A DNA stretch of 64,000 nt from Pelagovum pacificum. GTDB lineage: Bacteria; Pseudomonadota; Alphaproteobacteria; Rhodobacterales; Rhodobacteraceae. The DNA is taken from the NCBI RefSeq assembly GCF_016134045.1, contig NZ_CP065915.1, forward strand, positions 2,542,001 through 2,606,000, written 5' to 3'. The translations under genes were made by a program, and so were the position numbers. Numbering within the stretch: the first letter of the stretch is position 1; each line of letters opens with the position of its first letter. This document shows positions 48,534 through 64,000 of the stretch, in pieces. The notes beneath the pieces are model-generated. The model was not told the DNA's origin. It saw nothing but the letters and a program-made list of their open reading frames with translations, and did no database searches.

Positions 48534-50381
48534 ATGATGCGTGAGACCGGCGTTAAGACCGTCCTTTTGGCACTGGGGAGCCATCTTTTGAAATCGATTG
48601 CGAAGAGTACCGTCGCGGCCGTGGCACTGTTGGCCGGAGCGGGGCTCCCTGCACTTGCCCAGACTGTCGAGATCACGACGACGGACGAAGACCTCGAGGA
48701 CTCGCTGAGCGACGCGTCCCTGCTGCGCTCGCTCGAAGACAACGAGACCGAGGCCCCGGCACCGTCCGACTTCGTGAGCGCCGCGCGCGCCGACTACCGG
48801 CGGATGCTGACCGCCCTCTACAACGACGGCTACTACGGCGGCACCGTGTCGATCCTGATCGACGGGCGCGAGGCGTCGGGGATCGAGCCGCTCGACGCAC
48901 CGTCGTCCATCGGGCGCATTCAGGTTCTGGTCGATCCGGGCCCCCGCTTCACCTTCGGCCGCGCGGTCATCGAGCCCGTCGCGCCCGAGACCGAAGTGGA
49001 CGAAGGGTTCGCCCCGGGCGAGCCCGCACGGTCGGGCGTCGTGCGCTCCGCCGTGTCGGACGTCATCGGCGGCTGGCGCGACTACGGCCATGCCAAGGCC
49101 GACGTTGCGGACCAGCAGGTCACCGCCAACCACGCCGCCGACCAGCTGAACGTCGATGTCGCCATCGCGCCGGGGCCGCTACTGACCTTCGGCCCGCTCG
49201 TCGTGTCGGGCAACCGCCGCGTCCGGACCGAACGGATCATCGCCATCGCCGGCCTGCCGACGGGCGAACGCTTCGACCCCGAGGAAATCGACCTCGCCAC
49301 CGAGCGGCTGCGCCGCACTGGTGCCTTCTCCGCCGTCTCGCTCGAAGAGGCCGAGGAGATCGGCCCGAACCAGACGCTGCCGATCGAAGGCCTGTTCGTC
49401 GAGGACAAGTTGCGCCGCGTCGGCTTCGGCATCGAGGTCAGCTCGGTCGAGGGGCTGACGCTGTCGACCTTCTGGCTGCACCGCAACCTGCTTGGCGGGG
49501 CCGAACGGTTCCGCATCGACGGGGAGATCAACGGCATCGGGGCCGAGACGGACGAGATCGACTACGAGGTCGACCTCTCCTTCAACAAGCCCGCGATCTG
49601 GGGCCCGGACGTCGACCTCTACGCCAACCTCGGCTTCGGCGCGATCCAGGATCCGGCCTTCGACCTCCTGCTGGCGGAGGGTGAAATCGGCCTCACCCGG
49701 ATCGTCACGCCGGACCTTACGGTCAGTGGCGGCGTCGGCTTCCGCGCCGCCGAAGTCACGATCGACTCCCAGACATCGGATTATTTCCTGCTGACGCTGC
49801 CGCTGTCGGCGGAATTCGACCGTCGCAACAACGAGCTGAACCCCGAGAGCGGCTATTACATCGATGCCGAGCTGACCCCCTTCTACGGCGTCGAAGGGTC
49901 GGAAAGCGGGGCGCGGCTCTACAGTGATGCGCGCTACTACCGGAGCTTCGGCAACGACGACCGCTTCACCCTTGCTGGTCGGCTGCAGTTCGGCTCCGTC
50001 GTCGGGCCGACCGGGGCCGATGCGCCGGCCGACTACCTGTTCTACTCCGGGGGTGGCGGCACGGTGCGCGGGCAGGAATTCCAGTCGCTCGGCGTCACCA
50101 TCGACGGCACCGATTTCGGCGGCAACGCCTTCCTCGGCGCGCAGGCGGAAGCCCGGATCGGCGTGACCGACCGGATCGAGGCCGTCGCGTTCTACGATTA
50201 CGGCCAAATCGGCGAGGAGTCCCTGCCCGCCTCCGGCGACCCGAGCCACGCGGGCGTCGGGCTCGGCATCCGGTACGACACGGGCATCGGCCCGATCCGC
50301 CTCGACCTCGCGACCCCTGCCTCGGGGGATGATGCCTACAACTCCGTCGCCGTCTACATCGGGATTGGACAGTCGTTTTGA
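48534..50381 (+). CDS. tamA: Outer-membrane translocation module protein TamA
   Basis: The 615-residue Omp85 protein has a signal peptide ending near LPALAQ (about residue 43), POTRA domains (about 75-290; LLTFGPLVVSGNRRVRTERI is typical), and a C-terminal 16-strand barrel ending in phenylalanine (VAVYIGIGQSF). GYYIDAELTPF and YSGGGGTVRGQEFQSLG are Omp85 barrel motifs. With TamB it inserts outer-membrane proteins and may take part in lipid transport. ATGs at 48534 and 48537 are both possible. Confidence 0.93.
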   Translation: MMRETGVKTVLLALGSHLLKSIAKSTVAAVALLAGAGLPALAQTVEITTTDEDLEDSLSDASLLRSLEDNETEAPAPSDFVSAARADYRRMLTALYNDGYYGGTVSILIDGREASGIEPLDAPSSIGRIQVLVDPGPRFTFGRAVIEPVAPETEVDEGFAPGEPARSGVVRSAVSDVIGGWRDYGHAKADVADQQVTANHAADQLNVDVAIAPGPLLTFGPLVVSGNRRVRTERIIAIAGLPTGERFDPEEIDLATERLRRTGAFSAVSLEEAEEIGPNQTLPIEGLFVEDKLRRVGFGIEVSSVEGLTLSTFWLHRNLLGGAERFRIDGEINGIGAETDEIDYEVDLSFNKPAIWGPDVDLYANLGFGAIQDPAFDLLLAEGEIGLTRIVTPDLTVSGGVGFRAAEVTIDSQTSDYFLLTLPLSAEFDRRNNELNPESGYYIDAELTPFYGVEGSESGARLYSDARYYRSFGNDDRFTLAGRLQFGSVVGPTGADAPADYLFYSGGGGTVRGQEFQSLGVTIDGTDFGGNAFLGAQAEARIGVTDRIEAVAFYDYGQIGEESLPASGDPSHAGVGLGIRYDTGIGPIRLDLATPASGDDAYNSVAVYIGIGQSF

Positions 50382-53300
50382 AGACACGTGTCTGGAATCG
50401 GGCGTTTGCTCTGCTCGCCCTGCTTCTCCTGCCATTTCAAGCTGTTGCACAGGATGAGGACGACGACGTCGGCTACCTGACCCGGCTGTTGCAGGACAAC
50501 CTGTCCGACGTCAGCCGCGATGTCCGCATTCGCGGCTTCGAAGGCGCCCTGAGCACCGCCGCGTCCATCGAGTCGCTGTCCATCGCCGACGGCGAAGGGG
50601 TCTGGCTGGAGGCCGAGGGCCTCGTGCTCGACTGGAACCGCTCCGCCCTGCTGCGCGGCCGCGTCGATGTCGAAACGCTCTCGGCCGAACGGATCGCCAT
50701 TCTGCGCGCGCCGATCCCCGACCCGAACCTCGACCTGCCGCCGCCGGAAGCGCGCGTTTTCAGCCTGCCGGAACTGCCCGTTTCGATCGAGATCGGTGAG
50801 CTGCTGGTCGAGCAGATCGAGCTCGGCGAGACGCTGATCGGCCAACCGGTCGAGATGCGCCTCGAGGGGGCCGTGTCGCTGATCGGTGGCGAAGCCACCG
50901 CCGACATCCGTGCCGACCGCACCGACGGTGTCGAGGGGAGCTTTGTCATCGCCGGCGATTTCTCCAACGATTCCCGCAACCTCGAGATTTCCGCGCGGGT
51001 CGATGAGGCCCCCGGCGGCATCGTGGCAAGCACGCTGGACCTGCCCGGCGACCCGTCCGTTTCCATGCTGCTTGAAGGCAATGCGCCGATCGACGACTTC
51101 AGCGCCGAACTCTCCATCGACACCGATGGGGAAGAGCGGATCGCCGGCAGCTTCGCACTCTCCACGGAGCGGGAGGAAACCGACGGCGACGGGCCCCTGC
51201 CCCCGGCGACCCGCGCGTTCTCGGTCGATATCGGCGGCGACGTCACGACGCTCTTCGCGCCTGATTACCGGGAGTTCTTCGGCCCCGACATCCGTCTGGC
51301 CGCAAACGGACGCCTGTCGCCCGACGGCGCGCTGGACCTGCCGGAGCTGTCCATTACCGCACAGTCGATCAATATCGACGGCTCGCTGGAGCTCGGCCCC
51401 GGCGGCTGGCCCGAACGGTTCGCGCTCGACGGGACGCTCGAAGGTGACGGCGAACAGGTGCTGCTGCCGCTCGGCGGGCCGCGCACCTACGTCGACCGTG
51501 GCGAGATTTACGTGGCCTACGATGTCGAGACCGGCGACGAATGGAGCGGCTTCGCCCTGCTCGAAGGGTTCGAGCGGCCTGGCCTCTCCCTCCCCTCGCT
51601 GTCGCTGTTCGGCGACGGTGTCATCACGCAGTCCGAGGGCAACGCGCTCGGCGATGCGACGGCGAACCTCAACTATTCCGCCTCCGGCATCGTGATCGAC
51701 GACCTCGGCGTCGCGGAGGCGCTCGGCGACACGATCAGCGGCCTCGCCAACATCCGCTTCGACGAGGGCGAGCCGGTCGAGATCGAACAGATCACGATCG
51801 AGGGCGACGGCCTCTCGGCAGAGGCGAACGCCACGCTCGAACTCGTCGGCGATCTTGCCGTGCGCTTCGCCACGGTCGCGGAAGTCGCTGATTTCGGACG
51901 GTTCTCCACGCTCGCCGGCACTCCGCTGGAGGGCAGTGGCCAGATCGACGTGTCGGGCAACTACCTCGCCCTCGGCGGGTCGTTCGACATCGACCTGACT
52001 GCCGAGACCGCCAGCCTCGCCATCGGCAACGAGATGGTTGACCCGCTGATCGGCGGCGACGGCACCGTGCGCCTCGTTGCGGAACGCGACCTCGCCGGCA
52101 CCCGGGTGGAAACGTTTTCGGTCAGCACCGATGCGGTCACGGCAACGGGCGATGCCTCGCTCACCAGCACCGTCGCGACGATCGACCTGAACGCGGAAAT
52201 CAGCGACCTCGGGCTCGTCTCACCACAGCTCGCCGGGCCGGGAACGCTCGATATCGCGCTCGAACGCGATGCGGAGCTCGTGACCGTGTTCGACGGCGAC
52301 CTGGTGGCCGGCACCGCGAACCTCGCGATCGACGGCACCGCCCAGTCGGAGGAGAACGGCTACCTCACCGATTTCACCGTCAGCGGCATGGTCGAGGACC
52401 TCGCCAGCTTCGCCGATATCGCCGGACAGGATCTGGCCGGTAGCGCACAGCTGGAGGTTACCGGACAGGTGCAGCCTGTCGATCAGCTGTTCGATATCGA
52501 TCTCGCGGCCGAGACCGAGAACCTCGCCATCGGGATCGAGCAGGTCGATCCTCTCATCGCCGGGTCGGGCCGCCTGAACGTCAGCGCGGCGCGCGACGCG
52601 GCGGGGATCACCGTGGACCGGCTCGACCTGACGACCGACGAGGTCACCGTGACCGGCACCGCCCAGCTTGGCGAGGCGATGCGCAGTGCCGACATCGACG
52701 CGGAGCTTCGCGAAGTGGCGCTTGTGCTCGACGGGTTGTCGGGGCCGGCGACCCTGTCGCTGACCGCCGATCAGGACAACACCGGAAACGTTGCCGTCGA
52801 CCTGTCCGCAACCGCGCCGGAGACGAGCGTGTCCTTCGACGGCACCGTGGCGCCGCCCGAGCAGGACTATGTCACGCAGGGCGTTCTGACCGCGGACATC
52901 GCGACGCTGGCGCCGTTCGGCGACCTAGTCGGCCGGCCGCTGGCCGGTGCGGTGGAGCTGAGCGCATCAGGCATGGTCGAACCGCTGACCCGGTTCTTCG
53001 ATCTGGACCTTCAGGCCGATACCGAGGACCTCGCCATCGGGGAAGAGCGGGTCGATCCGCTGATCGGCGGCACCGGCCGGCTGCGGGCGGACGCCAAGAT
53101 GGATGCCGAAAGCCTGCTGGTGCGCAGCTTCTCCCTGACCACCGACGCGATCGAGGCGTCGGGCGAAGGCGAGTTCGGTGACGAGCGCCGCTCCGCCCGG
53201 ATCGACGCGGCGCTGTCCGATGCCGGACTGGTGTTGCCGCAGCTCTCGGGCCCCGCAAACGTTTCCGGCACGGCCGAACAGGATGCCCAAGGCAACGTCG

Positions 53301-55702
53301 ACATCGACCTGACCGCCACCGCGCCGAGCGCGACCGTCTCGGTCGATGCCGTCGTCGCACCGCCGGAGCAGAACTACCGCACCGAAGGCACGGTGAGCGC
53401 CGATATCACCTCGCTCGCGCCCTTCTCGGAGATCGCGGGCCGGCGGCTCGCCGGTGCGATCCAGCTCCAGGCGTCGGGGATGCTCGAGCCGATCAACCAG
53501 TATTTCGACCTCGAAGTGGCTGCCGATACCGAAGACCTCGCTGTCGGACTGGGCCTTGTCGATCCGTTGATCGACGGCACGGGCCGCTTGCGGGCCAACG
53601 CGGCGCGGGACGCCGAAAGCCTGACTGTGCGCAGCCTCGAGCTGACGACGGATCAGCTCGACATCACCGCCGAAGGGCAGCTTGGCGACGAGGTGCGGAC
53701 CGCCCGCATCGATGCGCGGCTGAACGAGGCGGGCATCCTGCTGAACGGCATTTCCGGTCCGGCGACGCTCGTCGGGACGGCGGATCAGGACGCGGCCGGA
53801 AACGTTACGGTCGACTTCACCGCCACCGCGCCGGAGACCCGCGCAGAGATCGACGCGGTGATCGCGCCGCCGGAGGAGAACTACCGCGCGACGGGCAGCC
53901 TGTCGGCGACGGTCGGTTCACTCGCACCGTTTTCGCGGCTTGTCGGACAGCAGTTGCGCGGGTCTGTCGCGCTCGAGGCGGAGGGCAGCGTCGCCCCGCT
54001 CGACGCGGCATTCGACCTTGACGTCAACGCGCGGACGTCCGACCTCGGCATCGGGATCGAGGCGGTCGACCAGCTTCTGCGGGGACCGGGCAACCTGAAC
54101 GCCAGTGTCGCGCGGGGCAGTGACGGGGCACTGACCGTGCGCGCGCTGAACGTCGGCCTGCCGAACCTGACGGTGTCGGGCGGAGCGACATCGGGCAGCA
54201 ACGGCGACACGGTGCAATTCGACGCCCGGCTTGCGGATGTCGGCATCTTCGTCCCCGACCTGTCGGGGCCCGTCACCGCGAGCGGCACGGCAAGCCGGAA
54301 CGGCACCGTCTGGACTGTCGACACGGATATCGACGGCGCGGGCGGCGTGAGCTCGTCCATTTCCGGACAGGTGTCGCAGAACGGCAATCTCGCGCTCAAT
54401 GCGAACGGGTCCGTGAACCTCGAACTGGCCAACAATATCCTCGCGCCGCGTCGGCTGGCGGGCACGGCGAACTTCAACCTGTCCGTTAACGGACCGCCGT
54501 CGTTCAACGCGATTTCCGGCACGATCAGCAGCAGTGGATCCACGCTCTCCCTGCCCTCTTTCGACAATGCGCTGGAGGATATCCAGGCGAACCTGTCGCT
54601 GGGTGGCGGGACCGGCACGCTCGACGTGCAGGCGCAGGTGGCGAGCGGCGGGTCGGTATCGCTGACCGGGCCGGTTACCGTGACTGTGCCGTTCAACGGC
54701 AACCTCGACCTGGCCATCAACGAAGTCGTGCTTCGCGATCCGCAACTCTACGAGACCACGATCAACGGCAACCTGTCGGTCGACGGTCCGATTTCGGGCG
54801 GTGCGACGGTGTCCGGTGTCGCGGTGCTTGGCCGCACCGAGATCCAGGTGCCGTCCTCCTCGGTCGGCGCTCTCGGACCGCTGCCCGAAGTCAGACACGT
54901 GAACACGCCCGGCGACGTGGCGGCGACGCTGAACCGGGCGGACGTCTCGCTCGACGGGACGGATCGGGATGACGACGCCGAAAGCGACGGCGGTCGCGAC
55001 CGCCCCTACCCGCTCGACATCCGGGTGGAGGCACCGGCGCGGATCTTCGTGCGGGGTCGTGGCCTCGACGCGGAACTGGGGGGTGAGCTCCGGATCACCG
55101 GCACCTCGGACGACATCCTGCCGGTGGGCCGGTTCGACCTGATCCGCGGCCGGCTCGACATTCTGCAACAGCGGTTCGAGCTGTCGGAGGGTTACGCGCA
55201 GCTTCAGGGCGATTTCGAACCCTACCTGCGTCTCGTCGCCTCGACCGAGGCGCGGGACGGCACGGTCGTTACCATCACGCTCGAAGGGCCGGCATCGGAC
55301 CCGGACGTGTCGTTCACCTCTTCGCCGGAGCTGCCGCAGGATGAAGTGCTGTCGCGGCTTCTGTTCGGGCGCGACCTCGCCAGCATCTCGCCCCTGCAGG
55401 CGGTGCAGCTCGCGGCGGCGGTCGGCACGCTGGCCGGGCGCGGCGGTGGTGGCCTGATCGGCGGCGTGCGCAATGGACTCGGCCTCGACGATCTCGACAT
55501 CACGACGGATGACGAGGGCAACGCGGCTGTGCGGGCGGGTGTCTACCTGTCGGAGAACATCTACACCGACCTGACCGTGAATGCCGAGGGCGAGACCGAG
55601 ATCGACCTCAACCTCGACATCACCGACAACGTCACCGCGCGCGGCACGGTGGGCGGCGACGGGGAGACCTCGCTCGGCATCTTCTACGAGCGCGACTACT
55701 AG
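50378..55702 (+). CDS. tamB: Translocation and assembly module protein TamB, unusually long
   Basis: The 1774-residue inner-membrane-anchored, periplasm-spanning beta protein partners TamA and belongs to the AsmA-like bridge proteins. The start is TTG at 50378, overlapping the tamA stop as TTGA; a signal or anchor helix follows (ALLALLLLPFQAVAQ). The C-terminal DUF490 region (about 1450-1774) has EVLSRLLFGRDLASISPLQAVQLA-like sequence and ends in GIFYERDY, the TamB terminus. The middle carries four gap-free 169-residue repeats (residues 554-1229). Alphaproteobacterial TamB is often 1200-1500 residues, so the extra length comes from these repeats. The acidic, Asp/Glu-rich composition is notable. 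Confidence 0.92.
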   Translation: MKTRVWNRAFALLALLLLPFQAVAQDEDDDVGYLTRLLQDNLSDVSRDVRIRGFEGALSTAASIESLSIADGEGVWLEAEGLVLDWNRSALLRGRVDVETLSAERIAILRAPIPDPNLDLPPPEARVFSLPELPVSIEIGELLVEQIELGETLIGQPVEMRLEGAVSLIGGEATADIRADRTDGVEGSFVIAGDFSNDSRNLEISARVDEAPGGIVASTLDLPGDPSVSMLLEGNAPIDDFSAELSIDTDGEERIAGSFALSTEREETDGDGPLPPATRAFSVDIGGDVTTLFAPDYREFFGPDIRLAANGRLSPDGALDLPELSITAQSINIDGSLELGPGGWPERFALDGTLEGDGEQVLLPLGGPRTYVDRGEIYVAYDVETGDEWSGFALLEGFERPGLSLPSLSLFGDGVITQSEGNALGDATANLNYSASGIVIDDLGVAEALGDTISGLANIRFDEGEPVEIEQITIEGDGLSAEANATLELVGDLAVRFATVAEVADFGRFSTLAGTPLEGSGQIDVSGNYLALGGSFDIDLTAETASLAIGNEMVDPLIGGDGTVRLVAERDLAGTRVETFSVSTDAVTATGDASLTSTVATIDLNAEISDLGLVSPQLAGPGTLDIALERDAELVTVFDGDLVAGTANLAIDGTAQSEENGYLTDFTVSGMVEDLASFADIAGQDLAGSAQLEVTGQVQPVDQLFDIDLAAETENLAIGIEQVDPLIAGSGRLNVSAARDAAGITVDRLDLTTDEVTVTGTAQLGEAMRSADIDAELREVALVLDGLSGPATLSLTADQDNTGNVAVDLSATAPETSVSFDGTVAPPEQDYVTQGVLTADIATLAPFGDLVGRPLAGAVELSASGMVEPLTRFFDLDLQADTEDLAIGEERVDPLIGGTGRLRADAKMDAESLLVRSFSLTTDAIEASGEGEFGDERRSARIDAALSDAGLVLPQLSGPANVSGTAEQDAQGNVDIDLTATAPSATVSVDAVVAPPEQNYRTEGTVSADITSLAPFSEIAGRRLAGAIQLQASGMLEPINQYFDLEVAADTEDLAVGLGLVDPLIDGTGRLRANAARDAESLTVRSLELTTDQLDITAEGQLGDEVRTARIDARLNEAGILLNGISGPATLVGTADQDAAGNVTVDFTATAPETRAEIDAVIAPPEENYRATGSLSATVGSLAPFSRLVGQQLRGSVALEAEGSVAPLDAAFDLDVNARTSDLGIGIEAVDQLLRGPGNLNASVARGSDGALTVRALNVGLPNLTVSGGATSGSNGDTVQFDARLADVGIFVPDLSGPVTASGTASRNGTVWTVDTDIDGAGGVSSSISGQVSQNGNLALNANGSVNLELANNILAPRRLAGTANFNLSVNGPPSFNAISGTISSSGSTLSLPSFDNALEDIQANLSLGGGTGTLDVQAQVASGGSVSLTGPVTVTVPFNGNLDLAINEVVLRDPQLYETTINGNLSVDGPISGGATVSGVAVLGRTEIQVPSSSVGALGPLPEVRHVNTPGDVAATLNRADVSLDGTDRDDDAESDGGRDRPYPLDIRVEAPARIFVRGRGLDAELGGELRITGTSDDILPVGRFDLIRGRLDILQQRFELSEGYAQLQGDFEPYLRLVASTEARDGTVVTITLEGPASDPDVSFTSSPELPQDEVLSRLLFGRDLASISPLQAVQLAAAVGTLAGRGGGGLIGGVRNGLGLDDLDITTDDEGNAAVRAGVYLSENIYTDLTVNAEGETEIDLNLDITDNVTARGTVGGDGETSLGIFYERDY
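52037..54064 (+). repeat. Four 507-bp in-frame tandem repeats within tamB
   Basis: Units begin at 52037, 52544, 53051 and 53558, each exactly 507 bases (169 residues), marked by VDPLIxGxG at the start. Within each unit the order is the same: VDPLI, a STTD/LTTD segment, LSGPA or LAGPG, a TAT-APxT strand pair, APPE-NY (units 2-4), LAPF, and FDLDL-ADTEDLAIG at the end. A degenerate fifth unit begins at 54065 (VDQLLRGPG). Units 3 and 4 are the most alike. Confidence 0.93.
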
Positions 55703-57431: not shown

Positions 57432-58313
57432 TCAATCCGCAATCTCGACAACATCGACCGCCTGCGACGTGCGTTGCTTGCCGGAGGTGCGCAGCGCGCC
57501 ACGGACCGGGGCGACGTCTGCATAGTCGCGGCCGCGCGCGATCACGATATGATCGGCGCCCGCGCGGGTGGCGTTCGTGGGGTCGAGCTCGACCCAGCCC
57601 ATGTCGGTGCCGCACCATGCCATGATCCACGCGTGCATCGCGTCCGCCCCCTCGAGACGGGCCTGCCCCTTGGGCGGAATGGTGCGGAGGTAGCCGCTGA
57701 CGTAGCCCGCCGGAATGCCGAGGCTGCGCAGCGCCGAGATGGCGAGATGGGCGAAGTCCTGGCAGACGCCGCGTTTCAGCTCGAACGCTTCTTCGATGGG
57801 GGTGTCGACCATCGTGGCCTGCGAGTCGAAGGTCCATTCCTCGTGCAGCGCGTTGCTCAGCGTCTCGGCGATGCGATAGGCGGAGCTCGCGCCGGCCGTC
57901 CGCTCCGCCGCCCATGCGGCAAGCGGCCCGTGCCGATGGATGCGCTCGCTGGTCCAGCGGAAATGGTGGGGCGAGAGCGGCTGAACGGAGGTGAGCGTAT
58001 CGAGCTGGCGCTCGATCCCGTCCATGTCGGGCGAGACGTCGAACAGTTCGTCGGGGTCGAACCGTTCGATGCGCGAGCGGACCTTGAATTCGGTCCGCTT
58101 GACCGCCCCGTCATAGCCGATGTCGGCCCATGAGTTGCCGAAGAAGTCGGTGTGCCAGGTCTGCTCGGTCGGGGACGGATCGACGGTGAGGGACGAGGCG
58201 ATCACCCGCTGCTCGCCCGGCAGGTCCGCGGGCATCAGGCAAAGCTGGTGCCGGCCGGACTCTGCGGCGGTCTCGTAGGCGTAAGTGATCTTCAGCGTGA
58301 TGTCGTAGAGCAT
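57432..58313 (-). CDS. Transglutaminase-like cysteine protease-fold protein (COG1305 type)
   Basis: The 293-residue protein has an N-terminal beta domain (LYDITLKITYAYETAAESGRHQLCLMP region) and a transglutaminase core with triad Cys184 (RGVCQDFAH), His227 (DAMHAW) and Asp244 (ELDPTN). No signal peptide is visible. It is the last of three cotranscribed genes and begins 4 bases after the stop of the ATP-grasp/alpha-E gene. Such proteins cleave or form isopeptide or peptide bonds; in this operon context a role as the peptidase of a peptide-tagging or peptide-synthesis system is predicted. Confidence 0.9.
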   Translation of the reverse strand: MLYDITLKITYAYETAAESGRHQLCLMPADLPGEQRVIASSLTVDPSPTEQTWHTDFFGNSWADIGYDGAVKRTEFKVRSRIERFDPDELFDVSPDMDGIERQLDTLTSVQPLSPHHFRWTSERIHRHGPLAAWAAERTAGASSAYRIAETLSNALHEEWTFDSQATMVDTPIEEAFELKRGVCQDFAHLAISALRSLGIPAGYVSGYLRTIPPKGQARLEGADAMHAWIMAWCGTDMGWVELDPTNATRAGADHIVIARGRDYADVAPVRGALRTSGKQRTSQAVDVVEIAD

Positions 58314-58317
58314 GGCC

Positions 58318-60720
58318 CTATCGCAAATGGGTTTGGGCAAGCAGTCCGGACAATCCGGCCACCTGGTTGGCGATCTCTTCCAGCGCGGCCTGGTCGAGGT
58401 CCGGCGGCTCCGCCACGGCGAGACGGGTCTCGAGCTTCATGACCTCGCGGCGCAGCGGTGTCATCTCTCCGCCCCCGGCGGGGATCGGCAGATACTTGAG
58501 GTGGGCGTGGATCTCGCTCAGCTGGTAGAGCACGGAGCGCGGGTTCATCGCGTCGAGCATCAGCAGGTCGATCACCGTCTCGCGGCTGTCGGACACGACG
58601 TAGCGGCGGCGGTGGGTCATCACGGAATCCCCGGCTTCGATCGCGATCTCGTAGGAGCCGTCCGGCGCTTTCGGCCCGGTCAGCGCGACGACGCTGTTGG
58701 CCGTGGCCCAGGCCCGCTCCATCGAGCGACCGATCGACAGGAAGCGCCAGCCGATGAAGCGGTACATGTTCTCGTGGATCAGGCCGGAGAAGCCGGAGAG
58801 CTTGCGCAGCAGCTGGTTCTGGGCGCGCACGGCGTCGTCGCCGGGACTGGCACTGCCGGCCAGCGCCTCGGCCGTGTCGAGCAGATCGACCAGCGCGCTC
58901 CAGCCATCGACGGAGAAGCGGTCCTGGATGCGGCCGGCGCTCGTCTTCGCCGCGCGGATGTCGTTTATGAGGGAGGCGGGCAGCGGTTCGTCAGGCTTGA
59001 GGCCCAAGCCTTTGAGGTACTTGCGGAAATAGGTGGTGAGCGGCAGTTTTGCGTCGCCCTGCTCCGCCAGCCGCAGGTGGTAGGAGCGGACCATGCGAAC
59101 CTTCTGCTCGGCCCGTTCGATATAGCGGCCCAGCCAGAACAGGTTGTCGGCGGCCCGTGTCGGCAGCGAGTTCGAAAAGCGCCGCCGCTTGGCCGAGCCT
59201 TCCGTGCGCAGCAGGGTATCTTCCTCGACCGGACGGTCGCCCATGACCCAGACGTCGCAGACCGAGCCGCCCCTCTGGACGGAGATCGACGTGCCCTGCC
59301 CCGCGTGGCCGATCCGGGCGAAGCCGCCGGGGGCGACGATCCATCCCTGTGGCGTGCGGGCGAGGAAGACGCGCAGGCTCATCGGGCGGGACACAAGGCG
59401 CCCGTCCTCCAGCGCCGGCGCGGTCGAGAGCGAGACGATCTCCTGCGCGGCGAGCGACTTGCCCATCTGGTCGATCCAGGCGGGATTTACCTTGCCGCCG
59501 GTGACGGTGCGGCCGCCGATCACGACGTCCTCGCCGTGATCGAACGGCAGGCGCGTCGACAGCGCCTGGTCGATCGTCATGCGGTGGAGGTTTTCCTTCA
59601 CGTAGTCGCGTTCCGCCTGACTGCCGCACCACCATGTCGCGATGTTGGGCATCGCCAGCGGGTGTCCGTTCAGGTGGCGCGCGATGCGCGGGATGAAGGC
59701 CATCAGCGCCCGCGCCTCCAGCGCGCCGGTGCCGAGCGCGTTGATCATCGTGACCGAGCCGCCGCGCAGGGCGCTGACCATGCCCGGCGTGCCGATGCGG
59801 GAGGCGGAGTTCAGCTCCAGCGGGTCGGCCCATTGGGAATCGAGCCGCCTCCAGAGCACCGAGATCGGCTGAAGCCCCGAGGCGGTGCGCACCAGAAGCT
59901 GGCCGTTCTGAACCGTCAGGTCCTCGCCCTCGACCAGCATCATGCCGAGGTAACGGGCGATGTAGGCATGTTCGAAGTAAGTGTCGTTCAGCGGCCCCGG
60001 CGTGAGGATCGCGGCGCGGCTGCGGTCGGGTCCGCGCAGCCCGTTCAGCGCATCACGGAACGCGCGGAAGAAGCTGGCGAGCCGCTGGACGTTGGCGCGG
60101 GCCTTGGTGTCGGCGAAGCTGCGCACCGTCGCCATCCGGGTCTCGAGCGCGAAGCCCGCGCCTGACGGCGCCTGCATCCGGTCGCCGAGCACCCACCAGT
60201 TGCCGTCCGGACCGCGTCCGATGTCGAAGGCGACGAAATGCAGGAAATTGCCCGACTGCGGCCGGATCCCGACCAGCGGGCGCAGCCACTCGCTGTTGCC
60301 CATCACCAGTTCCGGCGGCAGCAGCCCCTGCGCGACGAGGTCGTTCGGCCCGTAGATGTCCGCCGCCACCCGTTCGAGCAGGTCGGCCCGTTCGATCAGC
60401 GCGGCGCCGATCTGCTGCCACTCGTCGTTGCCGATCAGCAGCGGCAGACTGCCAAGCGGCCAGTCGCGCTCCGCGCCGCTTTCCTCGCCGTAGTGGCGGA
60501 AGTAGACCCCTGCGTCGCGCAGATATTGCTGGCCCTTGGCGATGTTGCGGTCGAGCTGCTCCGGCGAGAGCGTCGCGAGCTCTTCGAGGAACGGCCGCCA
60601 GACGGGGCGGATGTTGCCGGACGTGTCCAGCAGCTCATCCGCGACACCGGGTTCGACCCGGTAGTCGGCCATGAGCCGTCCGAGGTCCTCCCTCGTTCCC
60701 GTCCGGACCGTCTCAGACAT
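58318..60720 (-). CDS. Fused circularly permuted ATP-grasp and alpha-E domain protein
   Basis: The 800-residue protein joins two domains that are separate genes in many bacteria. The first (about 1-490) is a circularly permuted ATP-grasp ligase-like domain (DUF404/DUF407; [48 protein letters not shown]). The second (about 500-790) is the all-helical alpha-E domain (DUF403; [42 protein letters not shown]). ATP-grasp proteins of this type are predicted amide- or peptide-bond-forming ligases. The ATG at 60720 overlaps the stop of the DUF2126 gene by eight bases. Confidence 0.9.
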
Positions 60721-63700
60721 GCGCGGCGCGCCTGAGGTCGAGCGTCGCCGGGAACTCGCCATGCGGGTATTCCGGCGGCGGCATGTAGAGACCGGGCTTG
60801 TGGCCGTGCGGTTCGAACCGGGCGAGGCGACGGGCCTCGGCCTCGTTGGCGTTGACCGGGAAGGTGTCGTAGTTGCGCCCGCCCGGATGCGCGACGTGGT
60901 AGGTGCATCCCCCCAGCGAACGCCCGGTCCAGGTATCGAAGATGTCGATGGTGAGCGGGGTATGAACCGGGATCGCCGGGTGCATCGCCATCGAGGGTTG
61001 CCACGCCTTGTAGCGGATGCCGCCGACCGAGACTCCGTTCGTGCGGGTCTTCTGCAGCGGCACGCGGCGGCCGTTGCAGGTGACCGCGTAGCGGGTCGGG
61101 TCGAGCGTCGTGAGCTTCACCTGCAACCGCTCGGTCGAGCTGTCGGTGTAGCGCACCGTGCCGCCGATCGCGCCGGTCTCGCCCAGCACGTGCCACGGCT
61201 CCAGCGCCTGCCGCACCTCCAGGTTCACGCCGTCGATGTCGACTTCGCCGCAGAACGGGAAGCGGAATTCCGACTGCGCCTCGAACCACTCGGAGCGGAA
61301 CTCGAACCCGTGGTCCTGCAGGTCGCCGAGCACATCGGTGAAATCCTCCCACAGGTAGTGGGGCAGCATGAAGCGGTCGTGCAGCACCGTGCCCCAGCGG
61401 GTGAAATGCCCGGCGAGCGGCGCCTTCCAGAGCCGCGCGATCAGCGCCCGGATCAGGAGCTGCTGCGCCAGCGACATGCGCGGATCGGGCGGCATCTCGA
61501 ACCCGCGGAACTCGACGAGGCCGAGCCGTCCGGTCGGCCCGTCGGGAGAGAACAGCTTGTCGATGCAGATCTCGGCCCGGTGGGTGTTGCCGGTCACGTC
61601 CGTCAGCAGGTTGCGCAGCAGCCGATCGGTCAGCCACGGCATCGGCTGGTCGCCCTGTCCGGGATGCGGGATCTGGGCCAGCGCGATTTCCAGCTCGTAG
61701 AGGCCGTCGTGCCGGGCCTCGTCGATCCGGGGGGCCTGGCTGGTCGGGCCGATGAACATGCCCGAGAAGAGGTAGGACATCGACGGATGCCGCTGCCAGT
61801 GCAGGATCAGCGAGCGCAGCAGGTCGGGCCGGCGCAGGAATGGGCTGTCGAGCGGGTTTGAGCCGCCGACGACCACGTGGTTGCCGCCGCCGGTGCCGGT
61901 GTGCCGCCCGTCGATCATGAACTTGTCCGCGCCAAGGCGGCATTGCCGGGCCTCGTCGTAAACGCCGGCGGTGATGTCGACGCACTCGTCCCAGCTGGTG
62001 GCGGGGTGAATGTTCACCTCGATCACACCGGGGTCGGGCGCCACGCGGATGACGTTGATGCGGGAATCCGGCGGCGGGGCATAGCCCTCGATATGGACCG
62101 GCATCTGCAACCTGCTTGCCGTGTCCTCGACCGCGGCGAGCAGTTCGAGCCAGTCCTCGACTCGCTCGACCGGCGGCAGGAACACGCAGAGCCGTCCGTC
62201 ACGCGGTTCGATCGCGATCGCGGTGCGCACCGCGCCGCCGTCGGCATTGAGTTCCTGCTCGACGCGATGCTGACCGGGCTCGTCCGCGGTGAAGCTGGCG
62301 CGGGCCTGATCGCGGGACTCCTCCGGGGCGGCGGCCTCCGCACGCTCCGCCGGACGGTCGGGCCACGAGGGCGGTGCGGCGGGCCGATCGGGCAGCGGAT
62401 CGGTCAGGACCGAGGGATCGGCGGTGTTGATGTAGGGATAGGACGAGGGCGGCACGTAGGGCAGCGCCTCGAGCGGCAGGCGATAACCGACCGGGCTGTC
62501 ACCGGGGACAAGGAAGATCTTGCCGCGCCGGGGTTTCCACATCTCCGACTGCCACCGTTGCCCGGTCGCCCGGCCCTGCCAGCGCTGCACCGGCAGGACG
62601 TAGCCGCGCGGCTCGGTCAGGCCGTTGGCGAAGACCTTGGCGATGCGGGCACGGGCCTCGGCGTCCTTCAGCTCGGAATTCTCGGGCGTCACGTTCGGCG
62701 GCAGGTTGGCTTCCTTGAGCAGCCATTCGCCCGGATCCTCGTAGGCGGGCACCGCGTGCCCGGACTCGACGCCGAGCTCCTCGGCGACGCCGCGCAAGAG
62801 CGACGCGGCCTGCTCCACCGTCGGCGCGGCATCGGCGCTTTCGTCGGCGATCAGGCTGGCATCGTTCCAGATCGGCTTGCCGTCGCGGCGCCAGTAGAGC
62901 GAGAAGGTCCAGCGCGGCAGCGTCTCGCCCGGATACCACTTGCCCTGCCCGTAGTGCAGGATTCCGCCCGGCGCGAAACGGTCGCGCAACCGGCGGATCA
63001 GCTGGTCGGCGAGGCCGCGCTTCTGCGGGCCGACGGCGGCGGAATTCCACTCCTCCGACTCGAAATCGTCGATGCTGACGAAGGTCGGCTCGCCGCCCAT
63101 CGTCAGGCGCACGTCGCCCGCCGTCAGCTGGTCGTCCACCTTGCGGCCGAGCGTGTCGAGCGCCTCCCAGCTTTCTTCGGAGAAGGGCTTGGAAATGCGC
63201 GGATGCTCCGCCACCCGCGTGACGTTCATGTCGAAGGCGAAGTCGACCTCCGGCGCCCCGGCGGAGGAAAAGCCCCCCGCGATCGGCGCGGCGTTGCGGT
63301 AGTGCGGCGTGGCGGCAAGGGGAATGTGGCTCTCGCCCGTCAGCAGGCCGGACGTCGGGTCCAGCCCGACCCACCCGGCGCCGGGCAGGTAGACCTCGCA
63401 CCAGGCGTGGAGGTCGGTGAAGTCGTGATCCGTTCCCGACGGCCCGTCGAGCGCCTCGAGGTCCGGCTTCAGCTGGATCAGGTAGCCGGAAACGAAGCGC
63501 GCGGCGAAGCCGAGGTGACGCAGGAGCTGCACCAGCAGCCACGAGCTGTCGCGGCAGGATCCCTTGCCGATGCCGAGCGTTTCCTCCGGGGTCTGCACCC
63601 CTGCTTCCATCCGGATGACATAGCCGATCTCGCGCGCCAGCCGCGCGTTCAGCCCGACCACCATGTCGACGGTGCGCTGACCCGGCGTGCGGTCGACGCT

Positions 63701-64000
63701 GTCGAGCAGCTTCTGCAGGTGCGGGCCCGCCGGCTCCGGCTGGCGGTAGATGGTGAGGTCGTCGACATAATCGTTCGGGTAGTCGAAGGGCCATGCCTCG
63801 GCCTCTTCCTCCACGAAGAAGTCGAAGGGATTGTAGACGGACATGTCGGCGACGAGGTCGACTTCGATCTTCAGCTCGCGCACCGGCTCGGGGAAGACGA
63901 AGCGCGCCATCCAGTTGCCGTAGACATCCTGCTGATGGTTCACGAAGTGCCCGCCCGGCGACACCTTGAGAGAGTGCGACAGCACCCGCGTGCGGCCATG
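60713..64000 (-). CDS. Transglutaminase plus DUF2126 putative amidoligase, 5' end outside window
   Basis: At least 1095 residues are visible; the frame stays open to the right edge, so a short N-terminus is missing. From the right, a transglutaminase domain (about the first 290 visible residues) has cysteine in [10 protein letters not shown], histidine in DLHAWCEVY and aspartate in GLDPTSG. The DUF2126 region follows to the end, including [14 protein letters not shown] and [18 protein letters not shown]2126 is annotated in Pfam as a putative amidoligase. It is the first visible gene of the three-gene operon. Confidence 0.9.

Follow-up and report, generated by a model that had tools for sequence, protein, structure and literature searches.

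A conserved transglutaminase, DUF2126 and ATP-grasp–alpha-E operon of Pelagovum pacificum with a predicted pseudo-ligase

Can an operon that unites ligase-like domains with transglutaminase-like enzymes make and trim a peptide modification on its own, or does part of the chemistry come from elsewhere in the genome? The question is raised by three adjoining genes at the right end of a 64,000-nucleotide stretch of the alphaproteobacterium Pelagovum pacificum (NZ_CP065915.1, positions 2,542,001 to 2,606,000; the whole stretch is here called the window), in which all four domain types of the predicted circularly permuted (CP) ATP-grasp/alpha-E/transglutaminase/DUF2126 cluster are present in one operon. 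In 2009, Iyer, Abhiman, Burroughs and Aravind reportedly proposed that such clusters serve peptide synthesis or modification. The window operon shares the domain types of these clusters and falls under the same general prediction, but departs from them in that its fused ATP-grasp is without an ATP site. Judged by its residues, this domain is very probably a conserved pseudo-ligase and probably a non-catalytic partner, and the missing ATP-grasp chemistry may be supplied in trans.

The operon lies on the minus strand and reads from a transglutaminase-DUF2126 gene through a CP-ATP-grasp–alpha-E fusion to a second transglutaminase. The fusion gene overlaps the large gene by 8 bases, ATGTCTGA, and the small transglutaminase gene starts 4 bases past the fusion-gene stop, as an earlier sequence-only reading of this DNA had described. 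The first 96 bases of the large gene (64001-64096, encoding residues 1-32) fall to the right of the window, with the start codon at 64096. The features, in window numbering, are as follows:

60713..64096, minus strand: transglutaminase-DUF2126 gene, 1127 amino acids; Bact_transglu_N, Transglut_core and DUF2126
63356..64000, minus strand: N-terminal region of the large protein (to residue 247), transglutaminase-like; Cys181/His230/Asp246
60731..63250, minus strand: DUF2126 domain, Pfam 1329.5 bits; candidate catalytic residues kept
58318..60720, minus strand: CP-ATP-grasp–alpha-E fusion gene, 800 amino acids; CP_ATPgrasp_2 and Alpha-E
59311..60444, minus strand: circularly permuted ATP-grasp domain, predicted pseudo-ligase; CP_ATPgrasp_2, Pfam 404.4 bits
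58327..59166, minus strand: Alpha-E domain; PF04168, 178.9 bits
57432..58313, minus strand: stand-alone transglutaminase-like gene, 293 amino acids; PF08379 and PF01841; Cys184/His227/Asp244

That this assignment is not a product of chance follows from these three Pfam scores and from the identical gene order, all on one strand, in 71 of 80 related loci (the best 80 of at least 593 in the genome collection, nearly all alphaproteobacterial, one titled only 'Proteobacteria').

The ATP site of the fused ATP-grasp

The ATP-grasp alignment took 106 fused copies and 15 stand-alone ones from the loci and added 119 database homologs of the fusion, giving 225 fused copies in total; copies with fewer than 380 aligned residues were dropped, this genome's own proteins were counted once and the counts at each site rest on its five commonest residues. 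The fused and stand-alone families align over 477 columns. All 15 stand-alone copies display VLEDN (E174, N176), AD[DN]K (K335) and K382 followed by GGYG, and the same motifs appear upon alignment in the solved relative 3n6x; by pattern, they correspond to D318/E330/N332, K498 and K533 of Escherichia coli Gss. By analogy with the structures of GspS and glutathione synthetase, we take the acid, the Glu and the Asn to be Mg ligands and the lysines to contact ATP. In the fusion protein of the window, G179, R181, R337 and D384 occupy the places of the E, N, K and K of the stand-alone relatives, and a non-glycine loop (388-398) stands where those carry GGYG; two of the three Mg ligands, the Glu and the Asn, are replaced, and the acid is retained. 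Relative to the ATP-grasps of glutathione synthetase and glutathionylspermidine synthetase (PDB 3n6x, 1m0w, 2io8), the ATP and Mg residues have been lost.

The pattern extends across the fused family: the first Mg-site acid is kept as D or E in 225/225 copies, the N176 position is Arg in 219 and Asn in none, and the K382 position has lost its Lys in 217 (8 retain it), the GGYG loop being gone. Among 48 aligned fused proteins, no lysine is conserved at 90% or above. The rest of the domain has been maintained, with S186, R195, E250, R450 and D489 (own numbering) kept and the predicted structure of the fusion (mean predicted local distance difference test score, pLDDT, 87.7) adopting a glutathione-synthetase/GspS-type ATP-grasp fold. 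In a tree of 64 of the 121 copies from the loci, a single branch with 100/100 support separates the fused from the stand-alone ATP-grasps. A conserved pseudoenzyme is the simplest reading of a domain that has lost its ATP-site residues yet remains well conserved and confidently folded.

The sequence-only reading had counted two ligase-like modules, a view that finds no support in the fused ATP-grasp: the ATP lysines, the glycine-rich loop and all but one of the three Mg ligands, which the stand-alone relatives retain, are missing from it. Were DUF2126 and the fused ATP-grasp nonetheless both active ligases, the operon alone could make and trim a peptide modification; the 404.4-bit match, the preserved fold, the remaining Mg-site acid and the retention of much of the domain beyond it are consistent with this, whereas the loss of the Mg-site Asn in 225/225 and of the loop Lys in 217/225 fused copies, as against their presence in 15/15 stand-alone ones, makes it very improbable. 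Another alternative is that the fused domain uses a nucleotide in a rewired pocket built from residues of its own. R181 (94%), E335 (99%), W364 (99%) and G366 (98%) are indeed specifically conserved among the fused copies from the loci, and the motif WWCG (W363, W364, C365, G366) is invariant in the 48 aligned fusions. This motif possibly forms a new binding surface, and such a surface would predict the same conservation equally well; with neither a conserved lysine nor a glycine loop to bind phosphate, a rewired nucleotide pocket seems decidedly improbable. The available portions of later papers quote the 2009 prediction as treating the ATP-grasp as a peptide ligase, and a literature search, which saw its sources in part, found no published description of an inactive fused ATP-grasp, though the 2009 prediction paper may mention one.

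DUF2126, the transglutaminases and alpha-E

The loss of ATP-binding residues does not extend to DUF2126. Across 101 copies from the loci and 119 homologs (copies with fewer than 600 DUF2126 residues dropped), 17 of 19 tested positions are invariant, including E336, E391, E670, E693, H740, R840, E862 and R864; positions H697 and N739 vary. Its predicted structure, a moderate model, suggests a glutamine-synthetase/glutamate-cysteine-ligase-type fold, and in this putative fold and in the invariant Glu, His and Arg a parallel may be drawn with the superfamily of glutamine synthetase, YbdK-type glutamate-cysteine ligase and Pup ligase; it differs from these in being fused to a transglutaminase and in that the DUF2126 part has no PDB sequence match at E up to 1. 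The name amidoligase is the one that Pfam uses, and presumably applies here. DUF2126 looks like the intact ligase of the operon, probably an amidoligase of the glutamine-synthetase/glutamate-cysteine-ligase type with putative catalytic residues. Dop and PafA appear only among the lower-ranking fold matches of the model. In a quite different, degradative reading of the operon, DUF2126 would work as the depupylase/deamidase Dop does, and neighboring peptidases, together with the transglutaminase-like Cys enzymes, would strip off what the stand-alone ATP-grasp had added; we hold this unlikely.

Both transglutaminase triads noticed from the sequence alone are real: Cys184 and His227 of the small protein are kept in 102/102 copies and Asp244 in 100/102, and Cys181/His230/Asp246 of the large protein is present and kept in nearly all copies examined. 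For the alpha-E part, 69 fused and 16 stand-alone copies were aligned (those with fewer than 220 alpha-E residues dropped, this genome's own proteins entered twice), and E535, R536, E538, R542, E668, R669, P727 and R728 of the fusion are kept as in stand-alone alpha-E. A role in ligating and trimming a peptide or isopeptide, as first proposed, is still the best guess, with the amendment that only one of the two ligase domains looks intact.

Among the nine of the 80 loci that do not show the common order, two are cut by contig ends and seven have DUF2126 without the other two genes, two of these (L108 and L111) also lying near a contig end. In 40 genomes hand-chosen from the matches in a class sample and a phylum sample, mostly one per family, the same three proteins occur in 34, with the ATP-grasp and alpha-E always in one frame and DUF2126 on the opposite strand in three (L044, L045, L047). 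The co-occurrence of the three genes across related genomes therefore holds, and the ATP-grasp–alpha-E fusion, which the sequence-only reading had singled out, is present as described; given the 71/80 loci and 34/40 genomes, however, both it and the gene order are ordinary for the operon. DUF2126 itself was found in 29 of 190 class-sample genomes and in 63 of 200 from the phylum sample. These samples include seven further members of the family to which the window belongs, and it was found in none of them, a patchiness within the family that suggests horizontal gain or repeated loss. The operon is thus real, conserved and common, and of a predicted kind.

A stand-alone ATP-grasp in trans

About 250 kb from the window operon, the same genome carries an Anbu operon with its full set of genes (for ATP-grasp, alpha-E, transglutaminase and Anbu; L007:5579-9550, equivalent to G000:C1:2855578-2859549), and its stand-alone ATP-grasp has an intact ATP site. 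The N-terminal nucleophile (NTN) hydrolase partner that the sequence-only reading proposed to look for beyond position 64000 is not adjacent but sits elsewhere in the genome, in an operon of its own (Anbu at C1:2858803); no Anbu gene occurs within the window operon or in the 9 kb to its right. In the available portions of the Anbu-operon papers (PMC5666114, PMC6376114), peptide synthesis or tagging is guessed from the operon's content, the ATP-grasp of the Yersinia bercovieri operon releases phosphate from ATP, and Anbu neither acts as a peptidase nor stably associates with the remaining proteins of the operon. As far as those portions go, the ATP-grasp, alpha-E and transglutaminase of the Anbu operon are homologous to those of the window operon, but in the former each of the four is a gene of its own, the ATP-grasp is intact, an NTN hydrolase is included and DUF2126 is absent, the window operon being a second cluster without Anbu.

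The association recurs. In the 190-genome sample, alpha-E is present in 29/29 DUF2126 genomes against 41/161 others (p 3e-15, a value that ignores kinship), and Anbu in 21 of the 29, DUF2126 and Anbu being independent within alpha-E genomes. A stand-alone ATP-grasp was found in 28 of the 29, full-length in 27 and as a contig-end fragment in one. The 30 ATP-grasp rows compared consist of 28 full stand-alone copies (27 genomes, one with two), that fragment (L166) and one fused copy (L167, of genome G099); the 28 full-length copies retain D, E, N, K and K and the GG loop. In 17 of the 40 chosen genomes, stand-alone ATP-grasp/alpha-E or Anbu genes lie inside the stretch around DUF2126. Because nearly all of these DUF2126 genomes carry an intact stand-alone copy, the operon is proposed to depend on an ATP-grasp in trans. 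In some genomes an Anbu gene is found directly beside DUF2126 (L045:5149-9419, L034:7776-12238, L048:6733-11048). Genes of the 5-oxoprolinase-type carboxyltransferase (pxpB/pxpC-like; L007:9620-11250) begin about 70 bases past Anbu in this genome; a link to the Anbu operon was dropped, the adjacency being seen in 0/20 other Anbu loci, some of them cut at contig ends.

The reading preferred here, with a probability of about 0.5, is that the operon encodes an accessory module for modifying peptides, whose partner is this second, stand-alone ATP-grasp/alpha-E pair encoded elsewhere in the same genome. The stand-alone ATP-grasp would activate a carboxylate and make an amide or a small peptide; the pseudo-ATP-grasp of the fusion, whose fold persists and which may retain some of its substrate side, would with its alpha-E domain bind or present that product; DUF2126 might then use ATP to form one more bond, an amide or one of gamma-glutamyl type, and the transglutaminase-like Cys enzymes might trim or transfer the result. 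A bolder extension would have the two clusters act as a relay, in which a non-ribosomal peptide made by the intact stand-alone pair would be received and presented by the dead fusion as a scaffold, conjugated to proteins by DUF2126, a putative relative of the Pup ligase fold, and taken off again by Anbu, a zinc peptidase or the transglutaminase-like enzymes. Proteins would then be tagged and untagged in a ubiquitin-like cycle whose tag is encoded by no gene; this is speculative and quite unlikely.

Several observations count against the accessory-module proposal. The order in which its steps occur is conjectural, as is contact of any kind between the clusters. The residue roles were mapped by eye, and a profile alignment to E. 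coli Gss failed; the loop-position Lys is retained in 8/106 fused copies from the loci, locus L055 has a Glu at the E174 site, and residue loss is no proof of inactivity, as some pseudoenzymes retain unusual activity. The DUF2126 model has a mean pLDDT of 68.7, and its Foldseek matches to glutamine-synthetase-type proteins have E of 0.45 or worse. W44, S82 and R91 of stand-alone alpha-E are not retained in the fused proteins, and the window protein has Q599 where nearly all others carry Arg. On the side of the stand-alone ATP-grasp, G099 (84% complete, 640 contigs) is the sole DUF2126 genome without a match, the loop Tyr is altered in two copies (L149, L151) and one copy (L142, genome G095) is reported with two stops inside the match.

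Substrate, neighborhood and significance

The sequence-only reading had suggested that a substrate gene may lie just to the right of 64000. None is obvious among open reading frames (ORFs) of at least 70 amino acids in the next 9 kb, shorter ORFs there being unlisted; those present encode an EamA transporter, a PIG-L deacetylase and, by eye, a regulator and sugar-transport proteins. Nor do small ORFs (25-90 amino acids, no more than 700 bases from either end of the operon) beside the 80 loci form any cluster wider than 6 loci, one cluster on that scale being entirely from Mesorhizobium. A neighboring gene might encode a ribosomal peptide on which the cluster acts, which would accord with the general resemblance of ligase and protease-like genes to peptide-modification clusters; this reading is weakened, and with such neighbors and no widespread small ORF it has very little to recommend it.

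The EamA gene, on the same strand, ends 222 bases upstream of the operon, with the PIG-L deacetylase gene beyond it, and a MarR regulator and FAD monooxygenase gene lie downstream. A protein with a zinc ribbon and a Peptidase_Mx zinc peptidase domain recurs near the operon by clustering, in 5/40 and 6/80 loci; two members were confirmed by Pfam (L018:5606-6727, L063:16647-17681). A Peptidase_Mx search of this genome gave no match, but neither did the control genomes, so that absence does not follow. Other recurrent neighbors in the 40 loci, assigned by eye, are response-regulator-like (4), peptidyl-prolyl-isomerase-like (3) and RecQ-like (3) proteins, and the commonest in the 80 loci, likewise by eye, are large families (e.g., ABC-transporter ATPases, 29 loci) or rhizobial metabolic genes. 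Farther away in the window (50378-55702, plus strand), a 1774-amino-acid ORF with an N-terminal signal-like stretch resembles by eye a TamB-type translocation protein.

As for regulation, the available portion of PMC8050072 reports log2 changes of 4.44 and 3.99, nitrate versus ammonium, for Pseudomonas putida PP_2685 (a proteasome-type subunit) and PP_2688 (a circularly permuted ATP-grasp). Because these genes of the Anbu operon change with the source of nitrogen, sites for sigma-54 were sought upstream of 78 DUF2126 genes, with no convincing signal (mean best mismatch 3.88, against 4.17 in mononucleotide-shuffled sequence). A metagenome study, in its available portion, associates these domains with urea-metabolism domains (PMC3597751). 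The RloABC operon of Pseudomonas aeruginosa likewise combines an ATP-grasp, a transglutaminase-fold protein and a protease, RloB being an inactive membrane transglutaminase and RloC resembling RimK; the portion of that source available (PMC12239564) mentions neither DUF2126 nor alpha-E. No publication assigning a product to the genes of the window operon was found in the literature search, insofar as its sources were accessible.

These observations resolve one vague prediction into separate enzyme-level questions: one of the two supposed ligases is very probably dead, an intact relative is encoded in trans, and the surroundings showed no conserved gene for a substrate. Should the fused copy be dead and the active one reside in the Anbu operon, work confined to one of the two clusters could overlook the product, and searches for it should remove both clusters together.

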